Below, in pieces: positions 9,504 to 62,402 of a stretch of DNA of 64,000 nt. Source of the DNA: Clostridia bacterium (GTDB taxonomy: Bacteria > Bacillota > Clostridia > Peptostreptococcales > Acidaminobacteraceae); contig JAFGVN010000098.1 in assembly GCA_016937975.1 (NCBI GenBank), forward strand, positions 1-64,000. The letters run 5' to 3'. Below the pieces are notes generated by a model. That model made no database searches, was not told where the DNA came from, and saw nothing but the letters and a program-made list of their open reading frames with translations. The translations under genes and the position numbers were made by a program. The first letter of the stretch is position 1; the number at the start of each line of letters is the position of its first letter.

Positions 9504-10544
9504 TTACTTGCTAACAAAGCTTAATTCAACCAGCAAAGTTTCAATGGCCAATACCGTATCAATACTGGTACTTTTCATTTGATAATCAATATTTGAACAT
9601 TTCTCTAGAATATCAGTCAAGGCTTCACTTGAAAACAGATGAATCTGCTGCATAATTTTCTTTATTGCATAAGGATGCTGTCCCAAAATTTTAGCAATGC
9701 TATTTTGATCATAACCATCCGCAACCAACATTTTCACTTTCTTTAAAAGTCTAAATTGACGTGAAATCATTGTGAAAATCATCTGAACCGCTTCTCCATG
9801 TTGAATCAGTTCATGCATAAGCAATATGCCTGTAGCAGCTTTTTTTTCCCCAATGGCTTCAACCATCATAAAGATATTTGCTTCTAAAGGTTTTTTTATA
9901 AAGGCATCTATATCTGCAATTTCTACAAAAGTTCTGCCTTGCAAAGAGGAACAGACCATTTTTATATCATTATCTACATCAAGTAGACCTTTTGAACTGT
10001 TCTTATCCAAATAGGATGTTCTATCAATCAAATAATTGAGAACCTGATGTTCAATATCACATCCCGCCAATTTTATTTTTTTATGAACCCATCTTTGATA
10101 AATGTTGGGTGACAACTTATCAAACTCAATTACCCTGCCTACATCATCAATGGATTTTGTAATTTTTTTTCTTTTATCTATGGCTGTGTTAGAAATGAAG
10201 ATTAACTTTGTTGCATCAGAAGGACTTGCAAAATACTCCAATAATCGATTTTCTGTTGCATCTGTTAACATATTCTTTTTACTCTTGAAATATGGTGCAT
10301 TTTTTACGACGACGATTTTCAAATCACTGAAAAAAGGAACCGTTTCACAGGTATCAATCAACTCATCCACCGTGACTTTTTCACCATCATATACCATATA
10401 ATTAAAATCCCTTGAACTTTCAGGTATATATTTCTCAACCATTTTTTGCAAATACTGCTCTATTAAATATTGTTCTTGACCATGAAATAAATAAACTGGT
10501 CTTAAACCCATTTTTATATCCTGATCGAATACTTCAAATCCCAT
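9504..10544 (-). CDS. holA: DNA polymerase III subunit delta
   Basis: PVYLFHGQEQYLIEQYLQKMV N-terminus, VVVKNAPYF, C-terminal QIHLFSSEALTDILEKCSNIDYQMKS. Confidence 0.92.
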   Translation of the reverse strand: MGFEVFDQDIKMGLRPVYLFHGQEQYLIEQYLQKMVEKYIPESSRDFNYMVYDGEKVTVDELIDTCETVPFFSDLKIVVVKNAPYFKSKKNMLTDATENRLLEYFASPSDATKLIFISNTAIDKRKKITKSIDDVGRVIEFDKLSPNIYQRWVHKKIKLAGCDIEHQVLNYLIDRTSYLDKNSSKGLLDVDNDIKMVCSSLQGRTFVEIADIDAFIKKPLEANIFMMVEAIGEKKAATGILLMHELIQHGEAVQMIFTMISRQFRLLKKVKMLVADGYDQNSIAKILGQHPYAIKKIMQQIHLFSSEALTDILEKCSNIDYQMKSTSIDTVLAIETLLVELSFVSK

Positions 10545-10604
10545 ACTTCACCTTTCACTTTCTGCACTACTAATGATACTATAAATTCATTGAGTTGTGA
10601 ATGT

Positions 10605-12632
10605 TTAATAGGTTTTAACAAACATCAGAGAAAATGGTAAAATCGTAATTTTAACGCAGCCATCTTGAGTTAAATAAAGTTTTGTTCCTAATCGTTGATA
10701 GCGTCGTATTACATCAGAATCGGGGTGTCCATAATAATTTTTGTTTACACATATCACACCAATTCTAGGATTAAGCATGTCAATAAAGTTTTGAGTTGAT
10801 GAAGAATCCGATCCGTGATGAGGAATTTTTAAAACATCTATTTGGTGTAAGTTGTTTAATTGCTTCTCCACTTCTTCTTCTATATCACCTGTAAATAGGA
10901 GTTTCCTCTCATAGGCTTCTAGCAATAAAACAAGGGATGCATTATTCCCTATTCCAACATCATCATAAAATATAGGTTTTATTTCGAGTTCTCCTATATC
11001 CTCTATTGTTTTCATTTCTTGACCATGTATTAATTTTAAATACGCGTTAGGAAATTGACCCAAAAAAAGAGTGTCATTTATAAAAGGTTCTAGAAATGTT
11101 AACCCACCCACATGGTCTGAATGCTCGTGAGAAATAAAAATATAATCTAGCTTGCTAATACCATTCTTTTTTAGAATATCTTCTATGAGGGGATACTCTG
11201 GGCCTGTATCAATCATCATATTTTTGAATCTATGTTCTATAAGTATAGCATCGCCTTGATTCACATCAAGAAAGTAGATTTCAATTGCATACCACTTATA
11301 AATGACCACCATTGATGCAAAAAGTATGACTATACCTAGAATTTTCATTTTATTTTTAATTTCAAACCAGCATATTATAATAAAGTAGAAAAATACAATT
11401 TGATACAGTGATGGAGAACACACCGTTTTCAAGAAAATATTTTGATGCATAAAATAATTGAACTTCTCGACAAATCCTATGATCAATTCAACCAAAGTGC
11501 TCATAAAAGGTAAAGGAAACAATATTGGTATAAACATCATATAAAACACAACTGTGATTAAAGGTACTGTGATTAAGTTAATCACAAAGCTCAAAATGTG
11601 GAAGGTGTTCTGATGATAAATCACAAGGGGCAATAACATAAGTTGTATACCTAAAGGAAGCCAAATCTCAGATTTAAGCTGTTTTAAATATGGCAATAAA
11701 GTACCTATGCATAATAATGCTATAAAGGAAAATTGAAATCCTGTATGTAAAATTGCATAGGGATTTATGAGCATTACCACAATACCAACACCACTTAAAC
11801 TCGAAAGCAAATCATAAGGTCTGTTAACTTTCAAAGCAAGATCAACACATAAAAACATCATTAATGCTCTCAATGCCGAATAGGGTACACCAACAAGAAT
11901 AACGTAAAATGTAATAATGATATAAGTCATGACCTGTTTGTATTCAAATTTTTTTAATATCAAAAGTAGCGCGCCAATAAACGCCCCAATATGTAACCCG
12001 GATATGGCAAAAACATGACTTACACCGTTTTCTTGAAATATTTTTTTCATATCAGAATCGATTTTTGAAGTGTCTCCTAAAAACAAGCCTTTAATATAAC
12101 CTGAATAATCATCTGAATAAGTACTTTTTATTTCATTTTCTATATGAATATATAGTTTTTGAAATAAAGTATATTTAACTTCTATGGGTATTAACTTTAT
12201 TTCAGACAGATTTAAATTTTGAATAAAACCTAAACTATTCAAATAATCCCTATAAGAAAATGTATTGGGATTTCTATGTTCGTAAGATGTTTTATCCCAC
12301 GAAACCTTATATTTACCTGCTGGCAAACGTCTATCTGTATCATTTCTAATAAAAACTTTCTTCTGATTGAAAGTCATATAATAATTAGACTTATATGCAT
12401 GTAATTCGCCTTGATAATTTCCAGGATTCAAAACTTGTTCAAATATGCTTTTCCTTATAAAAAAACTCATAACTAAGATGAGTAAAATAACTAAAAAAAC
12501 ATATTTTTGTTGACCTTTTATGGTAAGCATCAGAAACATTATAATCGCTATTGCCATCCAGTAGTTTTGATTGATTAACAGGATTGTAATTAATACTAGG
12601 AAAAAAAAGATAACAAGTAAAGGTCTAGACAT
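10605..12632 (-). CDS. comEC: DNA internalization-related competence protein ComEC/Rec2
   Basis: ComEC core (GVSHVFAISGLHIG) plus C-terminal metallo-beta-lactamase domain (FISHEHSDHVGG, KIPHHGSDSS); ORF track start 12677, RBS AGGAGG precedes ATG at 12632. Confidence 0.93.
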   Translation of the reverse strand: MSRPLLVIFFFLVLITILLINQNYWMAIAIIMFLMLTIKGQQKYVFLVILLILVMSFFIRKSIFEQVLNPGNYQGELHAYKSNYYMTFNQKKVFIRNDTDRRLPAGKYKVSWDKTSYEHRNPNTFSYRDYLNSLGFIQNLNLSEIKLIPIEVKYTLFQKLYIHIENEIKSTYSDDYSGYIKGLFLGDTSKIDSDMKKIFQENGVSHVFAISGLHIGAFIGALLLILKKFEYKQVMTYIIITFYVILVGVPYSALRALMMFLCVDLALKVNRPYDLLSSLSGVGIVVMLINPYAILHTGFQFSFIALLCIGTLLPYLKQLKSEIWLPLGIQLMLLPLVIYHQNTFHILSFVINLITVPLITVVFYMMFIPILFPLPFMSTLVELIIGFVEKFNYFMHQNIFLKTVCSPSLYQIVFFYFIIICWFEIKNKMKILGIVILFASMVVIYKWYAIEIYFLDVNQGDAILIEHRFKNMMIDTGPEYPLIEDILKKNGISKLDYIFISHEHSDHVGGLTFLEPFINDTLFLGQFPNAYLKLIHGQEMKTIEDIGELEIKPIFYDDVGIGNNASLVLLLEAYERKLLFTGDIEEEVEKQLNNLHQIDVLKIPHHGSDSSSTQNFIDMLNPRIGVICVNKNYYGHPDSDVIRRYQRLGTKLYLTQDGCVKITILPFSLMFVKTY

Positions 12633-12771
12633 ATATCCTCCTGTTAACAATTTATTCCATAATTTACCAATTGTCAATTCAATTTAATATACGTCCTTAA
12701 AAATCTGAACAACTATTGTAAGCATTCAAGGGTTCTAAAAGGTATTGTTATTATAAAACAAGTCTTAACAA

Positions 12772-12796
12772 AAAAGTAAGGCTATGCCTTACTTTT
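12772..12796 (-). terminator. Intrinsic terminator overlapping 3' end of the YibE/F gene
   Basis: AAAAGTAAGGC-ata-GCCTTACTTTT followed by TT on minus strand. Confidence 0.85.
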
Positions 12797-13891
12797 ACCT
12801 ACATGAAAACGATAATCTTTAATTAATGCGACCGAAATAACTGCTGTTATTGGTATTGTTAATACCAATCCGATGCTGCCTGCAATTGAACGAATGACCT
12901 CAGTAGCTATGACATCTAAATTAATCATTCTAATCAGAGAATCATTGTTTGCCATAAATAAAAGCAACAATGGCAACATACTCCCTGTATAAGCTAAGAT
13001 TAAGGTATTAGACATTGTTCCCATAATATCACGACCGACACGCATACCGGATTTAAAAAGACTTTTCATGGACAATGATGCATTGACATTATGAAGTTCA
13101 TCGATGGAAGAAGCAATTGACATTGCAACGTCCATGATTGCTCCTAAAGCACCTAATAAAATTGCTGAAAATAATAAATGCTGAAAATTAAAAGTAACAC
13201 CTTGCACGTTGAGTAGCATAATCGCTTCATCAGAAGTCATACCTGTCAATTTAACTTGATGACTTATAAAAATTGATAACCCACCTGCAATCATAACACC
13301 AAGAGTAGTCCCTACAATAGCTGCAAAGGATTTTTTTGTTAGACCAGAAATAACAGATACCGTTATAACAGTAATAAATATTGCAACAACAACAGTCACA
13401 AGGACTGCATTATAACCTCTTAACAGTAATGGTAATTCAACCATAAAAATAAAGAAAACCGTTACAAATAAAGTAAAAATTGTTTTTAAGCCTTGTAATC
13501 TACCAACCATTAAAAGAGCAAAGGCAAAAGCTATTAAAAGCCAATAAATATAGGTGTCTCTTACCTCACTTGCAATGTAGTACTCTACAGTACCATCTTG
13601 ATAAGTTTCTACTGATAGTAAAACTTTCTGATGTAACTCGACTTCAATGTCCATTACATATGAATCAGAAAGATAATTCTCTATTAATACAGTTTCACCT
13701 TTATGCTCACCGGTTAAAATCTCTACTGTGACCAATTGGACTTTAGAAATAAAACTTTGTTCTGCATCCTCTTCTTCAATTGCAATGACCTCACCTTTTT
13801 CCATGGTTCTTTCCAACTCATACTCATCGGCAAAGGACAAGTTAGGAAACATAAAAAGCAAAGTTAAAATAATTAATAATATTTTCTTCAT
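12782..13891 (-). CDS. YibE/F family membrane protein
   Basis: Signal peptide, GEHKGETVLIENYL, multiple TM helices, GALGAIMDVAMSIASSIDELH and GRDIMGTMSNTLILAYTGSMLPLLLLF typical of YibE/F. Confidence 0.92.
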   Translation of the reverse strand: MKKILLIILTLLFMFPNLSFADEYELERTMEKGEVIAIEEEDAEQSFISKVQLVTVEILTGEHKGETVLIENYLSDSYVMDIEVELHQKVLLSVETYQDGTVEYYIASEVRDTYIYWLLIAFAFALLMVGRLQGLKTIFTLFVTVFFIFMVELPLLLRGYNAVLVTVVVAIFITVITVSVISGLTKKSFAAIVGTTLGVMIAGGLSIFISHQVKLTGMTSDEAIMLLNVQGVTFNFQHLLFSAILLGALGAIMDVAMSIASSIDELHNVNASLSMKSLFKSGMRVGRDIMGTMSNTLILAYTGSMLPLLLLFMANNDSLIRMINLDVIATEVIRSIAGSIGLVLTIPITAVISVALIKDYRFHVGKSKA

Positions 13892-13947
13892 AGAACACTC
13901 CTTCTGCTTTTATATTTTAACATTATTTCCATGGACTCAAAAGAAAA

Positions 13948-13967
13948 AAATCACCCGTAGGTGATTT
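13948..13967 (-). terminator. Intrinsic terminator
   Basis: AAATCACC-tacg-GGTGATTT followed by T-run on minus strand. Confidence 0.8.
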
Positions 13968-14522
13968 CTAATTTTCTTTGTCGTAAATATTTTCAAATGG
14001 ACCGGAAATAGGCACATAAAATACTAAGGATGCAGCGATACCAAAGCCAACTTGAATGAAGTTTGGAATTACACCAAATGCAGCATAAGCAAGGGCTGTA
14101 TCTCCTCCTAAGTCTTCAATCACAAATGAGCCTAAGATCAAATCTACTAAGAAGTAACCTCCAACCACAACAATACTTGCAATCACAGCATGATAAATTG
14201 TACGAAGTGTTTTATTCATAGATCGCTTATCACCTTTAAGTGATTTATAAGCAATACCAACACCAAATGCCAAAAGACCTTTTACAACAAAAGTGCCTAA
14301 CATGTAAATTGCATAACCACTAGCATAATCTGCTAAAGCTGAGCCAAATGCTGCAGCAACTGCACCATATACAGGTCCTAACAACATACCTGATAACATT
14401 ACTGCCAAATCACCGAAATGCATATAACCCCATCCAAAAGATATTGGGAATTTAATCATCCAAGTTGTAATAAATACTAATGCTGCGAATATACCTGTAA
14501 AAACTATTCTTTTTGTTTTCAT
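13968..14522 (-). CDS. ECF transporter S component
   Basis: MKTKRIVFTGIFAALVFITTWMIKFPI...GYMHFGDLAVMLSGMLLGPVYGAVAAAFGSALADYASGY; RBS GAGGAGGAAGT ahead of ATG 14522 (ORF track start 14561). Confidence 0.88.
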   Translation of the reverse strand: MKTKRIVFTGIFAALVFITTWMIKFPISFGWGYMHFGDLAVMLSGMLLGPVYGAVAAAFGSALADYASGYAIYMLGTFVVKGLLAFGVGIAYKSLKGDKRSMNKTLRTIYHAVIASIVVVGGYFLVDLILGSFVIEDLGGDTALAYAAFGVIPNFIQVGFGIAASLVFYVPISGPFENIYDKEN

Positions 14523-14606
14523 ACTTCCTCCTCGAAATTCACTTTGGGAAAAGCATATCAAGGCTATAAGATTTTGTAAAACAAATTAGGAAGATGTAAT
14601 AAAAAA

Positions 14607-14632
14607 CCATACAATTAAAGAGAATTGTATGG
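14607..14632 (-). terminator. Intrinsic terminator
   Basis: CCATACAATT-ctcttt-AATTGTATGG followed by TTTTTT on minus strand. Confidence 0.85.
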
Positions 14633-14639
14633 CTACAAT

Positions 14640-16037
14640 TTATTTGGTTGATAAAATGTGTATGGCCTTTTGATTTTTTTCCCAAAGCGCCAAGTGGTTC
14701 ATATTCATCGTTGGTAAAACACTAAAATTATTATGATCAATGAACATATACCCTTCATAGGCATCACTTGAAATAATTAATTTTTCATCATCTAAAGTGA
14801 TTAAATAGCCCTCATTGACATAATAATTCACCTTATCTTCAAATACATTGAATGCATTTAAATCCTCATTAACGATAACATCATAAGAATCCTTCATGAT
14901 TCTAAAGACCTGATGTGTTTCAGAATCCTTTGCAAATACAATATAGCTATCATTTAAATTGGATACTTCAACTGTACTATTTAATGTCAGGGCAGGTAAT
15001 TCCAGATTTATTTCTTGAAAACTTTGATCATCAAAATTATAAGTCATTAAACCTTCAATGGAAAATGTATCATTGATTGATCCTATAAAAACACTTACAT
15101 CGTGGTTGTTCCAATAAATTTTTGAGAAAATATCTTTATCCATTTGTGAAGAGTCTAAATATTTAATAGATTTTTTATCTACGTCATAATAGCCAATTCG
15201 CTTTGAAATAAGATCGATACCATCAATAAGATTGTTGGCATATTCGCTTTCTTTTGTATAATAATAGCAAACATATTCATCCTCTGACGACCAAGACAAT
15301 TCAGCCCCATAAACTTCATCAGCATATAATTTCCCTGAATCAGCACCGTATATTGAAAAATAGCTTTCTTCCAAAGCATCTAATCGATATTCTATGGAAA
15401 CATATCCTCCTTTGGGTGATATTTGAATTTGATGATCAAAATTTGCTAAATCAAAATTTTCCAAAGGTATATTTATGGTTCTATAGAAATCTTTCTCAAA
15501 ATTATATGTCACTAAAGTTGTTTTATCATGGTGATAATACAAAATCTTTGTCTTATCATCAGAAACTTTAAAGAGTAATTTACCATTGAAGGTTGCATTC
15601 TCAGCAAGGACATTATAGGTTCCATCTTTTAGTAAGCCAATAGTTGTATCTTTGGTACATAAAGTTCCATAGTCCGGAATCTCCATGACAAAAGTATATG
15701 CACCAAAATCTACAGTATCACTTATCAAACTTTCATAATTCATCAACTCGTTTTTTGTCGTATCAAAGATATAACTACCACTGATGTTATCCATAACACC
15801 TTCTATATATAAAAGTTCATTATCAATCCATTTAATAGAAGTAATTTCACTAAAACTTTGAATGATTATTTCCTGTCCTGAACTCATAATATTCGATTGT
15901 GATAACTCATAAATTTTAACCTCTTTGTCCAAAGTCGTTATTTCTTCATTAAGCGTTTGCTTTATGATGACAATCATAAGCACTAAAACGATAAATAAAA
16001 AAACAGTTTTAGAGATTCGTTTGGTCCATATTTGCAT
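14640..16037 (-). CDS. Membrane-anchored/exported protein of unknown function, beta-propeller-like
   Basis: N-terminal TM MQIWTKRISKTVFLFIVLVLMIVII followed by beta-rich repeats; RBS GCGAGG before ATG 16037; overlaps methyltransferase 3' end by 29 bp. Confidence 0.6.
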   Translation of the reverse strand: MQIWTKRISKTVFLFIVLVLMIVIIKQTLNEEITTLDKEVKIYELSQSNIMSSGQEIIIQSFSEITSIKWIDNELLYIEGVMDNISGSYIFDTTKNELMNYESLISDTVDFGAYTFVMEIPDYGTLCTKDTTIGLLKDGTYNVLAENATFNGKLLFKVSDDKTKILYYHHDKTTLVTYNFEKDFYRTINIPLENFDLANFDHQIQISPKGGYVSIEYRLDALEESYFSIYGADSGKLYADEVYGAELSWSSEDEYVCYYYTKESEYANNLIDGIDLISKRIGYYDVDKKSIKYLDSSQMDKDIFSKIYWNNHDVSVFIGSINDTFSIEGLMTYNFDDQSFQEINLELPALTLNSTVEVSNLNDSYIVFAKDSETHQVFRIMKDSYDVIVNEDLNAFNVFEDKVNYYVNEGYLITLDDEKLIISSDAYEGYMFIDHNNFSVLPTMNMNHLALWEKNQKAIHILSTK

Positions 16038-17922
16038 TGATTCCTCGCTTCTTGTATAACATTTCAATATGTAATATATCCTCTTTATTAAAATTAAATG
16101 CTTGATATATAATTTTGTCAATTAAATCTCGTTCCATACTACAATATCCATTTTTTATCATTTTTTCACTTGCTTCTTCTATGAGCAGTGTTTGTTTTTC
16201 ATCAAATAAGGGAACAGGTATTAAACTTAACGGGCTGGCATACAGTTCTAAATATTGTCCTTTTCTTTTACCACGGTTATACAACCAAAAATATACAAAT
16301 TTTGAATTGAGATATCCAGTTAACAGTTTCAGCGGTCCTTTTGTTATAAAATATACATCTGCACTTGCATAAAAAGGCTGGTCCGTATATGCAAAAGTGT
16401 TGGACATCGCTCTTTGAGGTACAACTATTTTTTCACCTTCAAAAATATCAGGATCTCTATACCACTGCAATGCATACCACTTTCTCTTACCATTTTTGAC
16501 TTCTCTTCTTTCGTCAAGTACAGGTTTAAAAGGAAGCAAATGGTTTGTTTCATCAGTATTAAGAGTTGTATCATCTGTAATGTACAATATATATCGAATG
16601 GTATTACTTTGGATGGTGTACTTCTTAATATCACTATTTTTATAAAATGGTTTTGATTTTTCACTAAGTTCATAATTTAAAACAAAGATGCCATCTTCCT
16701 TATGAATTTGATGTTTCCCTATATTTTCCTTACTCAGTTTAGTGTCTAGCATTTTCTGAGTAACTTTATCAGCTCCTGATACAATACCTTGATTAATTTG
16801 AGCAAAATTGAATAATCTAAATGGTGTAGCCTGAATGACCTTTTCAATGATTTGATAATAGCTTTGATTTTCATATAATAAAATATTATTGGATTCACTA
16901 AAAAGCTTCAAATGGTCCATATGATAAGAAACATCCGTTAAATCTTCTAAAGTGACAACCTTTTGATTTGAAAGGACTTGTATAGAGCATAATCCCTCTT
17001 TTTTACGAGACAAAGAAAAAATTAAGTTATGCATACCCTTTGCTTCAGAAAAAAGTTTAATTTCATCTAAATTAACTAAACGCTTAAAAGATGTTTCTTC
17101 TTTTATATAGGCTCTTAATTTTGAAGCGCCATCTGCAGTAATCCAATAATTAGTTGTAATAAAGGTTAGCAAACCGTCTGTTTTAAGGAGTTTCATTCCC
17201 TTATAGATAAAGAAATAAAAAAGATCCATCTTACCTTCGTAGCCTTTTAAATGCCTATACTTATCAAAAAGTGCCTTATTCCCTTTTTCACCTACATAGG
17301 GGGGATTACCAACAATTAAGTCAAATTTTAAATGCTCATCCATCAACAAGGTATCCATATGAAATAAATGGATATTTTCAACAGGTTCATTGGATTTTAA
17401 GAGTTGTTCAATAAACCATAGTTTACAAACCTTTAAAGTATCCTCATTTATATCATAACCATACAATTGATTTATGATACTTGTAGCATTAACTTTTATG
17501 TCATGTATTTTATTCCATTTCTCAATCAGCTCAAAGGAAGTGTGTAAGAATACGCCTGAACCGCAGCTGATATCAGCGATTTTCATAGAGGATAGAATTT
17601 CTGATACTTCACTAAAGTTTTCAAGGACTTGATCTTCAAGAAACAAAATCCTACAATATTCTTCGCTGAGGAATTTATTCTGAACAAAGTAATCATAAAA
17701 GGACATTCTTACCATAGATTTTGCAAGGCTCTTAGGTGTATAATAACTCCCAGTTAAAACTCGAACTTCATCTTCAATATAGCGATCAAAGTCTTCAAAA
17801 TCAACTTGGACGGAGTCCATCCAACCTTGAAACTCAATGAATTGACCTAGTAAATCCATATCATATGTATACTTTTTTGAAATATAGTTCATTAAATTAT
17901 TAATATAAGAATGCGTATTCAT
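16009..17922 (-). CDS. N6-adenine DNA methyltransferase, Eco57I/TaqI-like, with C-terminal target recognition domain; no nuclease domain evident
   Basis: SAM motif IADISCGSGVFL, catalytic FDLIVGNPPYVGEKGNKALFDKYRHLKGYEGKMDLFYFF, TaqI-like C-terminal specificity region; RBS GGAGAG before ATG 17922. Confidence 0.9.
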   Translation of the reverse strand: MNTHSYINNLMNYISKKYTYDMDLLGQFIEFQGWMDSVQVDFEDFDRYIEDEVRVLTGSYYTPKSLAKSMVRMSFYDYFVQNKFLSEEYCRILFLEDQVLENFSEVSEILSSMKIADISCGSGVFLHTSFELIEKWNKIHDIKVNATSIINQLYGYDINEDTLKVCKLWFIEQLLKSNEPVENIHLFHMDTLLMDEHLKFDLIVGNPPYVGEKGNKALFDKYRHLKGYEGKMDLFYFFIYKGMKLLKTDGLLTFITTNYWITADGASKLRAYIKEETSFKRLVNLDEIKLFSEAKGMHNLIFSLSRKKEGLCSIQVLSNQKVVTLEDLTDVSYHMDHLKLFSESNNILLYENQSYYQIIEKVIQATPFRLFNFAQINQGIVSGADKVTQKMLDTKLSKENIGKHQIHKEDGIFVLNYELSEKSKPFYKNSDIKKYTIQSNTIRYILYITDDTTLNTDETNHLLPFKPVLDERREVKNGKRKWYALQWYRDPDIFEGEKIVVPQRAMSNTFAYTDQPFYASADVYFITKGPLKLLTGYLNSKFVYFWLYNRGKRKGQYLELYASPLSLIPVPLFDEKQTLLIEEASEKMIKNGYCSMERDLIDKIIYQAFNFNKEDILHIEMLYKKRGINANMDQTNL

Positions 17923-17937
17923 GATTCTCTCCAAAAA

Positions 17938-17957
17938 AACCTGACTTTCGTCAGGTT
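17938..17957 (-). terminator. Intrinsic terminator immediately upstream of methyltransferase RBS
   Basis: minus strand AACCTGAC-gaaa-GTCAGGTT followed by T-run, then GGAGAG RBS. Confidence 0.85.
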
Positions 17958-18396
17958 ATTTTATCATCTTTTTATATTTCCCATCAGCGACTTTTGTTAC
18001 GCCATCAATTTTTTGAATGATTACATCAATCAACAAATCAATATCATTTATTGTAACGTCTATACCCTTTTTCTTCAAATATTTCATAATCGTAATTAAA
18101 CGAATATGGTATGAATTCGGATTTTTAAAATAAGGATGTTTTTCAATTAACTTTTGTATGTGTTCTTGATCCACATTGCTAAGATCCATTTGATTTTTAT
18201 TTTCTATTTGTTTCTCAATCACAGACAAATAAGATGTTAACTTCTCCTTATGATCCTCTTCATTAGAAATTAATTCTTTAATATTCTTTATCAGGTCATC
18301 AACGCCAATGGTTTCCGTATTGGCGGAGGACCCGTCATCTGAATTTTCAGGATGATCTGAAAAAACCAGCTTCATTGGTGCTCTCCTCTCTTTCAT
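17956..18396 (-). CDS. Hypothetical protein
   Basis: Intact ORF with GAGAGGAGAGCACC RBS-like sequence near ATG at about 18375; no family recognised. Confidence 0.6.
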   Translation of the reverse strand: MKERRAPMKLVFSDHPENSDDGSSANTETIGVDDLIKNIKELISNEEDHKEKLTSYLSVIEKQIENKNQMDLSNVDQEHIQKLIEKHPYFKNPNSYHIRLITIMKYLKKKGIDVTINDIDLLIDVIIQKIDGVTKVADGKYKKMIK

Positions 18397-18448
18397 AAAC
18401 TAAGTAATAACATTTTCATTTTACTATCATTGACAGTTCATGTCAATT

Positions 18449-19333
18449 CTAAAGCAAATCATCTAAACTTAACATTTCATCTTTAATAAAAACAACTCTA
18501 TCTTCTAGAATTTGACTTACTGTAGATTTCACCATTTCTAGCTGCACTTTTGAAACTGCTTCTATTTCCATTTTGAAGCTTGTAACAACAATTTCAGCCA
18601 ATTGTACATGATCTGAAACCATATGAATTATAGTTTCATCACCATCATTTTCAATAAGTAGAAAATCATCTGTATTTAAAAGTAAATCTAACACTTCATC
18701 ACGATTCTTAAGCGCAAAAGTCGATACATATACTTCAAAACCTTCATCTTCATTTAATTCTGCTTCATAAAAATCTATAATATTGGTTAAATGCAAAATC
18801 AATTGTGATTGACTTTTTACAAACTCTCTAATGTGTACTGGTTGAAATGCTGCACAATAGTTGTTATATTGTGTCATTACACTTTTGCGAATTACATCTT
18901 CCAAACTACTGTCATAAAATTCTGGTACATCGTTCATAATCCAGTAATTCTCCACCGGATAGATTCTAATTTTCATCAAATCATTTTCTTCAAAATACTG
19001 CTCTGTTTGCAACACATAGTCTTCACCTGTGACTACATCCTTCAACACTATTTTTTCATGTTCAATTCTTATTTTATATACGGAGTAACGAGAATTCTTA
19101 ATACTGTTCTTTACAATTAAGTCGCCTTCGATGTCATCAATGAGAGATTTTCCTTGATAAACATAATCATGTATCAACCAATTGTTAAAACCTTGATCCA
19201 TATCCAAGTCCGTTTTCTGATCACCAAAAGGTGCATGATATACTTGTATTGCTTTATTTATGAAAACTTGATTCCTTTCATTTGCGGCATAAATCAATGC
19301 TTCATCAACTAAATTTTCTATTTTTGTATTCAT
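18449..19333 (-). CDS. Hypothetical protein
   Basis: 294-aa intact ORF with RBS; no family recognised; possible NWLIHDYVYQGKSLIDD motif. Confidence 0.65.
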   Translation of the reverse strand: MNTKIENLVDEALIYAANERNQVFINKAIQVYHAPFGDQKTDLDMDQGFNNWLIHDYVYQGKSLIDDIEGDLIVKNSIKNSRYSVYKIRIEHEKIVLKDVVTGEDYVLQTEQYFEENDLMKIRIYPVENYWIMNDVPEFYDSSLEDVIRKSVMTQYNNYCAAFQPVHIREFVKSQSQLILHLTNIIDFYEAELNEDEGFEVYVSTFALKNRDEVLDLLLNTDDFLLIENDGDETIIHMVSDHVQLAEIVVTSFKMEIEAVSKVQLEMVKSTVSQILEDRVVFIKDEMLSLDDLL

Positions 19334-26418: not shown

Positions 26419-26751
26419 CTACTCCTTAATTTCATATCTCTTGCAACAAAATCTTAACTGAAGTACATAATGTAGGGTAATCAGAATATAGAATCCTAAA
26501 AAGTACAAACCTACTGAATCGTTCTTGGTAACAATTTGGACAATTCCAAAAATCAAACTGCCCAATACAGTTAAAATCCCTGTGTAAAACATCAATTTAT
26601 AGACAAAAGTCTTTAGCCCTTCTCTATTGTATTTTTTCTTATCATCATATTGTTTTAAAACTTCTACATAACCTGTGCGATTAATATATCTTCCCAAAAG
26701 ACTTACAATAACGCCAGGAACTGCAAAGGCAAAAATTATCCATGTACTCAT
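26419..26751 (-). CDS. Small membrane protein (DUF3784-like)
   Basis: Three TM segments; start overlaps upstream stop (TAATG). Confidence 0.5.
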   Translation of the reverse strand: MSTWIIFAFAVPGVIVSLLGRYINRTGYVEVLKQYDDKKKYNREGLKTFVYKLMFYTGILTVLGSLIFGIVQIVTKNDSVGLYFLGFYILITLHYVLQLRFCCKRYEIKE

Positions 26752-27770
26752 TATTCCTCCTTGAAAGTATATCTTTCAATCATTTTACTGGCCATGCCGT
26801 TTTCTTGACCTCTTGACATAATATCGCGAATTAAACTGGAACTGATATGCTCATATTCCTTGTCACAGAAATAGTAAACAAACTCCTGATTAGGCAGAAA
26901 ATCCTTAATTACATTTCTAAGTCCTTCTTCATGTTGCAAGTCATATGCATTTCTTAGACCTCTCACAACAAAAACCTCTCCATGTTCTTTAAGCCTTTGG
27001 ATTTCAGTCGTAATTAAGCCACTGTAAAAAACAATTTCTCTATTTCTAACCACATCTGGCAATTTTGTTTTTTGAAGATCCTTCTTGTCATAATTGATCC
27101 CTACACCAATAACCACTTTATCAAATGATTTTTCTGCCTTTTGTAAAATGTTATAGTGTCCTATATGAAAAGGGTTAAAACTACCTGGATAAAAACCAAT
27201 TTTATAAACTTTCTGTACAACTATGTCTCTTAATTCCAATAATGTATGATTACCAGTTTCTTCAAAGGCATAGTTCAAGAAAGCTTTTCTACCTTCTTTA
27301 TAATCGTTTATACTGAGATGTTGATATTCTTTAAAAATATCATCTTCCCATGTTAGCAAGGAATTGATATCTGTTTTATAAAGAATACTTCTGTCAACGC
27401 GAATAATCTCTTTCTCTAACTCAGTCAATTCTTGCTTAATATAAGCAGTTGCTTTAATAAGGCTCTCCACTATGTTGATAAATACTTCCTCACCATTACA
27501 ATGTGCTCTAAAAAAAGCAGCAGATTCAGCCTCATGATGTTCTATTTTCCCGTCATAAATGATATCGTGAAATAAAATTCCAATAACTAAAGCGTCATCA
27601 TCAATCTCTATGTTTTTCAACATATCACGAATATGTTCAAAATTATGATAGAAACGACTATGATGATTATAAGTTTTCATAATCTCTTCTAAGGTAAAAG
27701 TCACATGATATTTCGTCAACAAACCTTGTAAATCCCAAGTTTTATTTAAATAATGATTTGTAATTTTCAT
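26751..27770 (-). CDS. Fusion: N-terminal predicted HD-superfamily phosphohydrolase (COG4339-like) + C-terminal CoaD/NadD-like nucleotidyltransferase
   Basis: N-term YNHHSRFYHNFEHI...GILFHDIIYDG...HHEAESA; C-term KIGFYPGSFNPFHIGHYNIL...VVRGLRNAYDLQHEEG...EYEHISSSLIRDI; RBS GGAGG before ATG 27770. Confidence 0.88.
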   Translation of the reverse strand: MKITNHYLNKTWDLQGLLTKYHVTFTLEEIMKTYNHHSRFYHNFEHIRDMLKNIEIDDDALVIGILFHDIIYDGKIEHHEAESAAFFRAHCNGEEVFINIVESLIKATAYIKQELTELEKEIIRVDRSILYKTDINSLLTWEDDIFKEYQHLSINDYKEGRKAFLNYAFEETGNHTLLELRDIVVQKVYKIGFYPGSFNPFHIGHYNILQKAEKSFDKVVIGVGINYDKKDLQKTKLPDVVRNREIVFYSGLITTEIQRLKEHGEVFVVRGLRNAYDLQHEEGLRNVIKDFLPNQEFVYYFCDKEYEHISSSLIRDIMSRGQENGMASKMIERYTFKEE

Positions 27771-27857
27771 AATTTCCTCCAAAAATACTATATCACATTT
27801 CACTGGATTTGTAGACACTTTATCCAATTAGCAATTTGTCTCACCATATAAAATCAA

Positions 27858-28191: not shown

Positions 28192-29100
28192 TTAATTGGA
28201 TTTGTATATTGCCTTTACATTTGCAAACTGTATCAGATCCTGATTACTTAATTTATACTTTTCTCCTCTTAATAATAAATTTCCATTTAAGTAAGTCCCA
28301 TTCGTACTGTTACAGTCCAATAGAAAAAATGTTTCATCCTCATGTACAATTTCACAATGCACCCTACCAACAGATGGTTCTTTATCAAGTACTAAATCAT
28401 TTTCATAACCCCGCCCAATCCTAAATAACGCTTTATCTAAATATACTTTTTTATGCTTTAAAAGCAGATATGGAACTGAAGCTTTTAAACATACTGTTTC
28501 ATCCCTATTGACATCCGATACCCCTTTTATTGTTTTAGATTTAAAGGAAGTCTTTTTCCTTTTCCTTTTATAGGGCTCGTTAAGATAATTTTTTATTTGA
28601 ATCATATCCGTTGATTCACTTTGAATAAAAGTGATTAAATCTCTTAACTCATCATTTCTATTTCTTTTCAAATCCAATCTGTATAACCATGATAATACAA
28701 CCTTCTTAAACTGATGATGCATGTTTTGTGAAGGCTGATTTAGAAGTGGTGCATAAACAAGCTTAATACTTTCAGTGTGACTATCGTAGAAGATATAGTC
28801 AGAATCTAGTATTATTGAATTTTCCTCTAAAAAGTAATCCTTTGCAGATAAAATTCCTTCTATAAAATTCTGAATGAAAATTTTAATTTGTTGGGAGTCT
28901 GCTTCTATTACGGAAATATATTTATCTACCGTCATGAGACCAGTGATATCCCAAATCAGTTGATCCTCTAAAAAAACATCTACGAAGTACTTTTGGTCGG
29001 ATTTTAAAATCATTTGCCCCTCAAAAGATAGAAAGTACTCCTCTTCTATGGGTAATTTTAGTATGACTCTATTGCCTTCACTAGATTTTGAAATAAACAT
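28192..29100 (-). CDS. FHA-domain protein of Tad locus (DUF6382-FHA type)
   Basis: C-terminal FHA: FRIGRGYENDLVLDKEPSVGRVHCEIVHEDETFFLLDCNSTNGTYLNG; RBS CAGGAGC before ATG 29100. Confidence 0.88.
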   Translation of the reverse strand: MFISKSSEGNRVILKLPIEEEYFLSFEGQMILKSDQKYFVDVFLEDQLIWDITGLMTVDKYISVIEADSQQIKIFIQNFIEGILSAKDYFLEENSIILDSDYIFYDSHTESIKLVYAPLLNQPSQNMHHQFKKVVLSWLYRLDLKRNRNDELRDLITFIQSESTDMIQIKNYLNEPYKRKRKKTSFKSKTIKGVSDVNRDETVCLKASVPYLLLKHKKVYLDKALFRIGRGYENDLVLDKEPSVGRVHCEIVHEDETFFLLDCNSTNGTYLNGNLLLRGEKYKLSNQDLIQFANVKAIYKSN

Positions 29101-29257
29101 ACAGTGCTCCTGAAGTAAAGTCCTTATCAACAATATCTTGAATGATATTTTCAACAAAAGCTGTAATCTGTGTTTTGAAAAGTAATGCAATGCCTACTAA
29201 TATTGCTAAAATAATGACAAGTTCAATTGTCCCAAAACCTTTTTCATCTTTAAACAT
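29081..29257 (-). CDS. Flp/Flp1-like small pilin (not in supplied ORF track)
   Basis: Hand translation MFKDEKGFGTIELVIILAILVGIALLFKTQITAFVENIIQDIVDKDFTSGALYVYFKI*, 58 aa; GGAGG RBS; between tadC-like and FHA genes. Confidence 0.85.
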   Translation of the reverse strand: MFKDEKGFGTIELVIILAILVGIALLFKTQITAFVENIIQDIVDKDFTSGALYVYFKI

Positions 29258-29268
29258 AAAACCTCCTA

Positions 29269-30045
29269 TTAAAATTGCATCAAAGAAATAACCGCTGGAT
29301 ATACTAAGGCAATGACAATACCGATTAAAGCAATTGACATCGGCATTAAAAGTTTTGTACTTGCTTCTTCTCCTTTCTTTAATAATTGCTGATGGCGATC
29401 TTTTCTAAAATCATCCATTAACCTCTTTAATGATTGAAAAGTATCTTCTCCTCCACTTTTCTGATCAGATATGATTATGCGAATAAATCTTGTGACATAA
29501 TCGTTATAGACATTCTGTCCTATTGGTAATAAGACTGTAGAAAGATTTTGACCCTTTCTAATCATATTCATTTTTCTTAAGTACATACTCTCAAAAGGGT
29601 TTTGCGGCGATTCTATCACGTCCAAAAGGGCATTGTAAACTACCATACCAGCATTGATATTTAAAGCGACACTTAAGAATATATCATTCATGCTTTCGAT
29701 CATTTCTTTACGCAATTTCTTCTCTAACTCAAGTAATTTTAAATAAGGCATCAGGAGCATAAAAATACAGATCATAATTCCAAAGAAAAGATTTCCCCCT
29801 GAAAATTGAATTAACCAAATCCATAAAAATGTAACACTTTGAACATAAGCAACTGTAATTTTTTGCTTCAATTGCTCTTCAATAGGTTCTTCCAGCAGGA
29901 AAGAAATAAAATTCAATGCCATTTGAACCTTTAAATTTCTAAAAATCTTCACATGACTTGTTTTTACTTTTCGAGGGATTATCTGAATTAAAAAAGAATA
30001 TTTTTCATTGAATAAAAACACGATTACATATAATAATAAAAGCAT
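29269..30045 (-). CDS. TadC-like type II secretion system F-domain protein
   Basis: RKDRHQQLLKKGEEASTKLLMPMSIALIGIVIALVYPAVISL; operon context. Confidence 0.85.
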   Translation of the reverse strand: MLLLLYVIVFLFNEKYSFLIQIIPRKVKTSHVKIFRNLKVQMALNFISFLLEEPIEEQLKQKITVAYVQSVTFLWIWLIQFSGGNLFFGIMICIFMLLMPYLKLLELEKKLRKEMIESMNDIFLSVALNINAGMVVYNALLDVIESPQNPFESMYLRKMNMIRKGQNLSTVLLPIGQNVYNDYVTRFIRIIISDQKSGGEDTFQSLKRLMDDFRKDRHQQLLKKGEEASTKLLMPMSIALIGIVIALVYPAVISLMQF

Positions 30046-30048
30046 AAA

Positions 30049-30759
30049 TCAAACCTCAATGTGAATGATATGTTCACCAATCTTATAAGCCACCACTAAA
30101 CAAATGAGAACAAGAGTCATAATTATTCTGCCAGGTAAATCTTTAAATAGAACGGTCATATAAGCCATATCACTCCAGCTCAAAAAAGCCAATAAGAGAA
30201 CCGGCACAATCATCAACAGATAGAATTCAAATTTTTTTGCTGCAAGAAGTACTTCCATTTCCATATCAAGATCCATTTGATCAGTAATTAACTGTATACT
30301 TTCACCGACTACAATTCTTAAATCACTTCCTTGTTCATAGGCCATGGAAAGACCTTTTGAAAATTGAATAGCAGGTTTTAACATAAGTTTTTCAGAAAAA
30401 TTTTGCCATGCAATTTTTTCTGATTGACCAAGTGAAACCTCACCAATAAGGGTAAATACAGCTTCTTTCAGAATTTTATTCATCATAATCATGGTCTGAG
30501 CACTATTTATAACAGCGAGTTGCATAACACTTCCCGTTGTTAATTCTGTATAAATACTGTTTAAGAACATTCTGAACTCATGTAGTATGCCTTGTTGATT
30601 ATCGATTTTCTTTATGTAACCCTGAACACTAAAAAGTACCATCACAAAAAAACAGCCAAAAATATGCCTATAAAAAACAAATCCAACCCAGGAACCTATG
30701 AAACTGTGTATTGCTATACTTTTAAATCTAGCACTAAAAATAAATACTATTTTCTTCAA
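30049..30759 (-). CDS. TadB-like membrane protein
   Basis: Membrane protein with T2SSF-like middle region (EVSLGQSEKIAWQNFSEKL...QGSDLRIVVGESIQLI); TTG start after AAGGAG; operon context. Confidence 0.75.
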   Translation of the reverse strand: MKKIVFIFSARFKSIAIHSFIGSWVGFVFYRHIFGCFFVMVLFSVQGYIKKIDNQQGILHEFRMFLNSIYTELTTGSVMQLAVINSAQTMIMMNKILKEAVFTLIGEVSLGQSEKIAWQNFSEKLMLKPAIQFSKGLSMAYEQGSDLRIVVGESIQLITDQMDLDMEMEVLLAAKKFEFYLLMIVPVLLLAFLSWSDMAYMTVLFKDLPGRIIMTLVLICLVVAYKIGEHIIHIEV

Positions 30760-31939
30760 TTTTACTCCTTTGAATCATTTTATTTTGAGGCATTAGAACA
30801 TCTTCTTCACGTTTGTATAAAATGTTAATTTCATACTTTTCTTCAGAAGGCAGAAGTTCAATTATTTCTTTTATTTGTCGTACTCCATTTGGTTTTCTTT
30901 CAAGATGTACAATCAGATCAATACTCGAAGAAATTAATCGTCTTATGACCATACCTGGAAGTTCAATTCCTTTTAAAACCATGAGTTCCAATCTACTTAG
31001 CATATCCTTAGCTGAATTACCATGACCCGTAGACATTGATCCATCATGTCCGGTATTCATTGCATTAATCATCTCGATGACCTCTTTACCCCTAACTTCA
31101 CCTACAATAATTCTATCTGGTCGCATTCTTAACGAGGTTCTAATTAAGTCATCCATCGAAATACCTGAATGACCACCTTGAGAAGGCTTCGTTTCTAAGG
31201 AAACTAGATTATGAATATGCTTCAATTTTAATTCTGCTGCATCTTCTATGGTAATCAACCTTTCATATGAAGGGATAAGTGCAGAAAGTGCATTTAAAAA
31301 AGTGGTCTTACCTGAACTGGTTCCTCCAGATACAAACAGATTATATTTACATTGAATCCATTCTTTAAAATCATGAAGCAATTGGTTTTTATTCTTTTCA
31401 TTAAACAATAGATTTTCTAAGGACATCATTGAATCAGAGAATTTCCTTATGGTAAGAATTGGACCATTTAAAGCAATGGGCTTTAGTACGATGTTTACCC
31501 TTGAACCATCTTTCAATCTAGCATCAACAATGGGATGACTTTGATCTGCCTTACGATTGACTTTTGAAACAATATTTTGAATCAAATTCATCAATTCTTC
31601 TTCACTTTTAAATTGAATGGTTGTAACTTCTATCCTACCTGACTTTTCAATGATAATAGGTGACAATCCATTTACCATGATTTCAGAAATTTCATCTTCG
31701 TCCAGTAATGGTTGCAGAATTCCCAGTTTAAATAAACTGTTATATATTTCTAAAGCAATTTCTAGGCAATCAGAAACAGAAATATCTTTCAGCTGCCCTC
31801 TTTCATAAACGTAATGTTCAATATGCTCTTTTGCAAGGCTTTCATCTAATTCCAAAGACGACAATTGTTTTATGAGTTGTAATTTAATTTCGTGTCTAAA
31901 ATGATCTTTAGTTTGTTCATAATCAGGTCTGATTCCCAT
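30734..31939 (-). CDS. TadA/CpaF-family secretion ATPase
   Basis: ISEIMVNG, VSGGTSSGKTTFLNALS, RLITIEDAAEL, RMRPDRIIVGEVRGKE, NTGHDGSMSTGHGNS. Confidence 0.97.
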   Translation of the reverse strand: MGIRPDYEQTKDHFRHEIKLQLIKQLSSLELDESLAKEHIEHYVYERGQLKDISVSDCLEIALEIYNSLFKLGILQPLLDEDEISEIMVNGLSPIIIEKSGRIEVTTIQFKSEEELMNLIQNIVSKVNRKADQSHPIVDARLKDGSRVNIVLKPIALNGPILTIRKFSDSMMSLENLLFNEKNKNQLLHDFKEWIQCKYNLFVSGGTSSGKTTFLNALSALIPSYERLITIEDAAELKLKHIHNLVSLETKPSQGGHSGISMDDLIRTSLRMRPDRIIVGEVRGKEVIEMINAMNTGHDGSMSTGHGNSAKDMLSRLELMVLKGIELPGMVIRRLISSSIDLIVHLERKPNGVRQIKEIIELLPSEEKYEINILYKREEDVLMPQNKMIQRSKIEENSIYF

Positions 31940-32772
31940 ATGTTAAATCCTTTCTGAAGGTGTGCATCATAAGGGATGATTGAATATTTTCCTTCACTTA
32001 AACTAATTTCATGTCCATAAACATGCGGTTTTATTGTATTCAAAAGCAAATGAATTTTTTGATTCAAAACGAAATCATGGGTTAACAGGTAATAATTTTG
32101 TTCAGTAGGGCAAACACAAAAGAGAATATCCCATTCATACGCTTGAATTAAATCATAGCGATTTGATAAATCAACAACTACTTGATTAAAATTCATGTCC
32201 AAAAGTTCATTAATCATATGCTTCATCAGCTCAGAATCAATTTCAAGAATATCCATATAGGAGTAGGGACCATTAAAATATTGAAAACCACTCATATGTG
32301 TATTCAATAATAAACTCTTCTGACGCTTTAAGTTAAAAATAAAGTCAGATATTGAAAGGCTTCTGTTTTGAGGTAAATAATAATTGCATTTTGGAAAACG
32401 ATCTAAAGATAAATGAAATGCTGGATTTGACTTTGCCAACTCATAACACCCATTTAATGATAAAGTTGTTGCACCAGAGCCACCGAAGGTATTTATGAAT
32501 GCAATGACTTTCCTTGTTGCATGGTTGTAATCCCACTCAAATAGTTTTAAATGCTTAATAAATTCTTGTACAGACTGAAATTGATTAATTATTTTTTGTT
32601 CTGTATCATTTCTAGAACCCATTAAAATACATTTTTTATTCAAAAGAATACTGTCAGTAATAAAAATACCCTCTTCATCTGTATCCGTTGAAACTTCAAT
32701 TGTTTCACTTGCTAATACCTTGAATAATCTATTTTGTAAATGCTGATTCTCTAGTTTGAGTATATATTTCAT
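31870..32772 (-). CDS. CpaE/TadZ-like ATPase
   Basis: KVIAFINTFGGSGATTLSLNGCYELA deviant-Walker-like motif, FNQVVVDLSNRYD; precedes tadA. Confidence 0.8.
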   Translation of the reverse strand: MKYILKLENQHLQNRLFKVLASETIEVSTDTDEEGIFITDSILLNKKCILMGSRNDTEQKIINQFQSVQEFIKHLKLFEWDYNHATRKVIAFINTFGGSGATTLSLNGCYELAKSNPAFHLSLDRFPKCNYYLPQNRSLSISDFIFNLKRQKSLLLNTHMSGFQYFNGPYSYMDILEIDSELMKHMINELLDMNFNQVVVDLSNRYDLIQAYEWDILFCVCPTEQNYYLLTHDFVLNQKIHLLLNTIKPHVYGHEISLSEGKYSIIPYDAHLQKGFNIWESDLIMNKLKIILDTKLNYNS

Positions 32773-61526: not shown

Positions 61527-62324
61527 TTACACCTTCATTATAATTCTTAGAACCGCATTTGCTTGATGTGCTGCAGCTAAAGTAGCCCTTGGTGCCATTA
61601 ACCCCCATCCAGGTTTCGCTTCAGATACATCATCACCGATTAAGTAGAACTTTGAAGTAATTTTTTTTGTTGTAATGGTATTGCTGTCTTCATATCCTGC
61701 TAAACCTGATGCAGCTACAAGATACTTTTCAGGGAACTGTTCCAAGACTTCATTCACAAGCATAGCCTTATTCTCAGCCCCATCAAAAGCTTCAACAATA
61801 ATCTCAACATCCTTGAGTAAAGGATAAACATCTTCTTTTCTTATATAACAATCCACTGTTTCCACAATCACATAAGGATTTATATGCTTTAAAATATCCT
61901 TTAGAGCATCGGTTTTTTTCATACCAATATGTTCAATAAAATACTGTTGGCGATTCAAATTACTGGGTTCAACTACATCAAAATCTATAAGTTTTAAATG
62001 ATTGATTCCTAATCTTGACAGCATTATTGCTACATTCGAACCTAAGCCTCCTAATCCACAAATGGCTACAGAAACTTTTTTTACAGCTTCGTGAACCCCA
62101 GGTGTATGACGCGATACCAAGGCTTCTTCTAGCACTTCCTCACTAGGAATCATCCCTTTTGTGATCAAAAATACGCGATCACCTTCCTCAAGGATGACAT
62201 CTTCTTTAATAGGATAACCATTGTATACCCAAATGTCAGCATCTGGTTGATAAGTATTCACTAAAGTAATTATGGAAAAGTCTTTTTCAATTTCTATCTC
62301 TTTTTCATTTAATTTAATTTTCAC
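61527..62324 (-). CDS. ThiF-family adenylyltransferase with N-terminal ThiS-like domain
   Basis: N-term MKIKLNEKEIEIEKDFSIITLV...; VAICGLGGLGSNVAIMLSRLGINHLKLIDFDVVEPSNLNRQQY; GTG start 62324 after GGAGGTG. Confidence 0.9.
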   Translation of the reverse strand: MKIKLNEKEIEIEKDFSIITLVNTYQPDADIWVYNGYPIKEDVILEEGDRVFLITKGMIPSEEVLEEALVSRHTPGVHEAVKKVSVAICGLGGLGSNVAIMLSRLGINHLKLIDFDVVEPSNLNRQQYFIEHIGMKKTDALKDILKHINPYVIVETVDCYIRKEDVYPLLKDVEIIVEAFDGAENKAMLVNEVLEQFPEKYLVAASGLAGYEDSNTITTKKITSKFYLIGDDVSEAKPGWGLMAPRATLAAAHQANAVLRIIMKV

Positions 62325-62402
62325 TTTTTCACCTCCACACAAGTGTACTACAATTCCTTAGATTTCACAATGAATCCAAAGGATTCCCACAGGCGAAAAA
62401 AA

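Follow-up and report, generated by a model that had tools for sequence, protein, structure and literature searches.

A CamA-related orphan adenine methyltransferase and its conserved gene cassette in the Peptostreptococcales

Genes and features of the methyltransferase locus

The window (the whole analysed stretch of 64,000 nucleotides) belongs to a draft genome of 4.03 Mb and carries the following genes on its minus strand: (i) h294 (18449..19333), the first gene of the cassette; (ii) h146 (17956..18396); (iii) the gene for a gamma-class N6-adenine DNA methyltransferase of the Eco57I/TaqI type, hereinafter MT (16009..17934, 641 aa); and (iv) the gene for a membrane-anchored protein of 465 aa (14640..16037). 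All four open reading frames reported in the initial annotation are intact at these positions, and the described 29-bp overlap between MT and the 465-aa gene is borne out by the ATG of the latter at 16037, which stands behind GAGG. The 465-aa protein is probably a beta-propeller, as first proposed, although the profile matches obtained, to propellers of the DPP-IV and kelch types, were weak. A terminator-like hairpin on the same strand (14605..14634) closes the unit formed by MT and this gene. The conserved context block that follows (9504..14561, minus strand) consists of genes for an ECF-S transporter (13968-14561), YibE/F (12782-13891), comEC (10605-12677), and holA (9504-10544). Elsewhere in the window, an apparent fusion of an HD-type domain with a NadD-like nucleotidyltransferase in one open reading frame (26751-27827), a Tad-pilus-like cluster including an FHA-domain protein (28192-32772), and an apparent ThiS-ThiF fusion protein (61527-62342) were noticed by eye.

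The methyltransferase is intact, with motif I (DISCGSG), the NPPY motif, and the TaqI-type specificity region all present, and it matches the Pfam families Eco57I (E 5.6e-26), N6_Mtase, and TaqI_C (8.6e-10). It does not begin almost directly with the catalytic domain, as initially described: about 115 residues precede motif I and include the motif-X stretch YYTPK at residue 64. The listed start, TTG at 17934, lies inside a T-run, and the ATG at 17922, located behind GGAGAG, is the likelier start, which would give a protein of 637 aa. The reported lack of a nuclease-like open reading frame nearby held up in profile and structure searches, which identified no nuclease family in any cassette partner and no hidden nuclease domain matching a standard restriction-modification type. 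A fused or adjacent endonuclease of a type II or IIG restriction-modification system is absent at the MT locus, and no ATPase or helicase partner was found there. These results support the assignment of MT as an orphan gamma-class adenine methyltransferase with no cognate nuclease beside it. M.TaqI and M.BseCI have the fold and the TaqI-type specificity region in common with MT but, unlike it, are parts of restriction-modification systems. The BREX methyltransferases PglX/BrxX show distant similarity to MT; however, PglX is a protein of ~1200 aa from a multi-gene system, and neither PglZ, BrxC, and BrxL nor other Brx/Pgl genes were found near MT.

Between h146 and MT lies a hairpin resembling an intrinsic terminator (17938..17957, minus strand), which overlaps the h146 stop codon and is followed by a T-run extending to 17933. 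It reads AACCTGAC-GAAA-GTCAGGTT-TTTTT, is succeeded at once by the MT ribosome-binding site, and has a minimum free energy of -14.2 kcal/mol (z -3.7). In relatives, the arms differ and yet remain paired, e.g., AGCCTGAC/GTCAGGCT and AGAGTTTGGC/GCCAAACTTT, as well as AGATTTTAGTGC/GCACTAAAATCT and AGCTTTGG/CCAAAGCT. Such a hairpin is present at 11 of the 14 close h146-MT junctions, compared with 10 of the 146 remaining close junctions between same-strand genes (Fisher p 3e-9), whereas none was found at the stops of h294 or MT or at the loci where comEC, rather than MT, follows h146 (L100, L101, L104-L106). Four loci (L040, L042, L059, and L061) lack the hairpin or have it at a different position; in the two Fusibacter loci among them (L059 and L061), it is located farther from the h146 stop but still immediately upstream of MT. 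A search of the region against Rfam gave nothing above the gathering score. The count of promoter-like sites in the region does not stand out from that of shuffled sequences (38 versus 34.3 +/- 5.2), and thus no promoter is claimed. On the simplest reading of this arrangement, a terminator at this position would tie MT expression to read-through or to a promoter located in h146.

Both h146 and h294 belong to unnamed families, and comparison with Pfam, NCBIfam, PADLOC, PHROGs, and PDB sequences yielded only chance-level matches. In the AlphaFold model, the N-terminus of h146 is disordered and is followed by a coiled coil and a winged helix-turn-helix domain (residues 77-143, pLDDT >90 for most); the structural matches of the protein in PDB include the winged-helix domains of Rok and DpnI, none of them reaching E 0.001. 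For h294 (mean pLDDT 89), the C-terminal domain has a beta-alpha-beta4-alpha-beta order and was matched by Foldseek to single TBP repeats (probability ~1.0, E 0.02-0.1). The N-terminal domain shares homology with the core of a Peptostreptococcaceae protein, found in a Clostridioides-like genome, that combines SEC-C and helix-turn-helix parts; unlike SEC-C motif proteins, h294 lacks the SEC-C motif itself and has the TBP-like domain. The fold matches of both proteins are weak when taken singly. Because of the winged-helix, SEC-C-associated, and TBP-like folds, both proteins are predicted, and are likely, to bind nucleic acid.

Distribution and descent of the cassette

The gene order h294-h146-MT-(propeller)-(ECF-S)-(YibE/F)-comEC-holA is found all across the family as well as in additional families, as seen in a set of 37 loci of about 10-22 kb each, and the cassette is thus syntenic in dozens of species, far beyond chance. 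The propeller-like gene was found in only part of the relatives. The best search matches of h146 come from Acidaminobacter sp. JC074 and a metagenome-assembled genome, followed by Fusibacter; we take the window genome to belong to the family of these genera, in the order called Peptostreptococcales by GTDB. When the order was surveyed with a single genome for each species (297 in total), MT (at least 499 bits) was found in 74, h146 in 49, and h294 in 55. The proposed link of MT to the two hypothetical proteins is supported by this synteny and by co-occurrence, the counts of which ignore relatedness: MT is present in 52 of the 55 genomes with h294 and in 40 of the 49 with h146, and in each of these 40 it lies on the same contig and strand as h146, within 5 kb. 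Of the three genomes with h294 but no MT, two are fragmented at the position of the cassette. Within the family, 27 of the 28 genomes with MT have at least 2.3 Mb, the remaining one being 62% complete, and 12 of the 13 genomes without MT have at most 2.1 Mb. Hence, MT is near-universal in non-reduced family members and missing essentially only at 2.1 Mb or less.

The cassette h294-h146-MT is inherited vertically. Over 21 loci, MT distances track those of the neighbouring genes, with matrix correlations of 0.91 for comEC, 0.90 for h294, and 0.84 for holA, the last value being equal to that between holA and comEC themselves; in addition, the MT tree shares 10 of 18 splits with the holA+comEC tree. 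A recent transfer of the cassette was rejected in view of the congruent trees and by the GC content of 30-31%, which is similar to that of the surroundings. The most conserved cassette protein is h146, with a mean identity of 48% over 16 loci versus 33% for HolA. Seven loci (L100, L101, L104-L106, L121, and L122) have h146 beside comEC-holA with neither MT nor h294, so h146 appears to predate the methyltransferase or to be independent of it. As h146 stands without MT in several lineages and h294 in one, a joint complex of the three products would be conjectural.

The initial annotation had offered an undescribed defence/regulatory set, formed by MT, h294, and h146, as one explanation. A methyltransferase adjoining two unknown genes and matching the PADLOC models for type II and BREX methyltransferases invites a reading as anti-phage defence, but the flanks are of housekeeping type, descent is vertical, and MT is almost universal in the larger genomes of the family. 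Moreover, neither nuclease, ATPase, nor helicase was found, h294 and h146 match no PADLOC defence family at a meaningful score, and h146 occurs without MT. A defence set is therefore not supported, and we regard it as quite improbable.

The order-wide proximity of comEC, two to four genes downstream of MT, brings to mind DpnA of pneumococcus, a methyltransferase that marks incoming DNA during uptake. A comparable function of MT in natural transformation is nevertheless very improbable: comEC and holA are also close to each other in relatives that lack MT (L100, L101, and L105), so that the position of MT may be incidental; some families have MT outside the comEC-holA region; and no competence signature is seen in h294 or h146.

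Type IIG-like proteins of 794-1215 aa that combine the methyltransferase and specificity region of the orphan clade were also observed (L055, L056, L162, L181, and L182-L184); three viral-collection contigs in this set carry only versions of 1100-1154 aa. Among strong matches, the MT relatives on viral contigs are exclusively such long IIG-like proteins, and h146 is absent from viral-collection contigs. The long fusions within the MT clade (L055, L056, L162, and L181) and the viral versions would be consistent with MT being a solitary protective methyltransferase, a relic of or an antidote to foreign restriction enzymes that is kept for self-protection. However, protective genes usually move and decay, whereas the short orphan form descends vertically at one locus across many genera, and protection would need neither a conserved hairpin nor partners. 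We consider this explanation unlikely.

Relationship to CamA and the predicted recognition motif

The best match of MT among solved structures is CamA (E 6e-28), and its identity to a near-identical CamA protein is 26.7%. CamA (M.Cdi630V) of Clostridioides difficile is an orphan m6A methyltransferase of CAAAAA; it resembles MT in being a gamma-class enzyme without a nuclease, in having an identical domain order, and in being kept vertically at one locus. The locus itself is different, rrf2-camA-patatin-ptsH-ptsI in Clostridioides versus the comEC-holA region for MT, and the two conserved partners, h294 and h146, are a further difference from CamA. In a tree of 70 proteins, the window clade (support 99) is separate from the clade of CamA and other Clostridia proteins (support 100), which supports a sister relationship of the two, with the root weakly placed since the outgroup is not clean. 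The initial view of MT as an orphan methyltransferase related to CamA thus agrees with the closest solved structure, the missing nuclease, and the conserved neighbourhood; orthology to CamA was rejected because of the tree and the different chromosomal place. Window-type and CamA-type enzymes did not occur together in any genome among the matches listed.

The residues by which CamA contacts the bases of CAAAAA are published (PMC8187626). In CamA numbering, R425, W439, R441, Q346, S472, A473, and Y521 are invariant across 28 syntenic MT proteins, and K172 is kept in 27 of the 28. Four replacements relative to CamA are fixed in the clade (H171>E, I349>V, Y455>Q/H, and K456>R); the replaced residues touch A3, A4, and T5 or act as a wedge in the helix, so the MT motif is predicted to be near, and possibly not equal to, CAAAAA. 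On this basis, MT would place an asymmetric m6A at a C-A-A-A-like motif, with the C-A-A part kept, positions 4-5 possibly different, and the last A methylated. Our literature search yielded no methylome papers on the MT-carrying group. CAAAAA-type orphan methylation is established in Clostridia, and the CAAAAAR/CRAAAAR methyltransferases of Clostridium, Eubacterium limosum, and Acetobacterium have a motif class similar to the one predicted here (PMC10745947, PMC5027557). Those of these enzymes that occur in Clostridia probably belong to the CamA clade, and some of the enzymes (CcaP7ORF7120P), unlike MT, are restriction-modification fusions.

Published work presents CamA as a C. difficile-specific enzyme (PMC13395437) that is rare elsewhere (PMC8187626). 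We observed CamA-clade methyltransferases at the patatin-ptsH-ptsI locus in several Peptostreptococcaceae genera (L110, L112, L117, L118, L119, L129, and L069), with 57-64% identity to the Clostridioides enzyme; a more distant protein of the clade, at 40% identity, still adjoins ptsH-ptsI.

A possible role in gene control

CamA is described as regulatory and acts on sporulation through SpoIIE (PMC13395437). None of 30 family genomes, including 23 with MT, had SpoIIE above the cut-off; it is present in MT-carrying genomes of three other families (f2, f5, and f11). Since MT persists in genomes without SpoIIE, the known sporulation target of CamA cannot explain its conservation. Despite the absence of SpoIIE, the window genome encodes a divergent Spo0A-like protein (G000:C62:12283-13002; 217.6 bits, cut-off 200).

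An old, vertically inherited cassette with partners and a putative brake on transcription looks like a gene-control device rather than a virus defence. The explanation that we favour, with a probability of about 0.6, is that MT is an orphan, lineage-core, regulatory methyltransferase with a CamA-like motif, cassette partners, and a terminator-limited output; the regulatory part is argued by analogy with CamA, a member of the sister clade at the above low identity. According to this scheme, MT would add m6A genome-wide to one strand of an asymmetric A-rich hexamer, and the marks would modulate the binding of transcription or chromosome proteins. The presumed nucleic-acid-binding partners would have evolved vertically together with MT, forming a single cassette near comEC and holA, and the terminator ahead of MT would keep its output low or conditional.

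A more far-reaching version of this scheme, which we put forward only tentatively, considers h294-h146-MT to be a dedicated epigenetic module ancestral to the Peptostreptococcales. As proteins binding either DNA or RNA, the two partners would recognise or position the methyl marks and determine the MT output at the terminator, while CamA would be a related enzyme that was relocated, became specialised, and has no partners.

The CamA-clade proteins outside C. difficile bear on the claim of CamA as a species-specific drug target. In much of the same order, the sister clade of CamA is a core gene that comes with partners and a conserved terminator-like hairpin. This makes it possible to test, in harmless and partly non-sporulating relatives, how CamA-type regulatory methylation arose and what it originally did.
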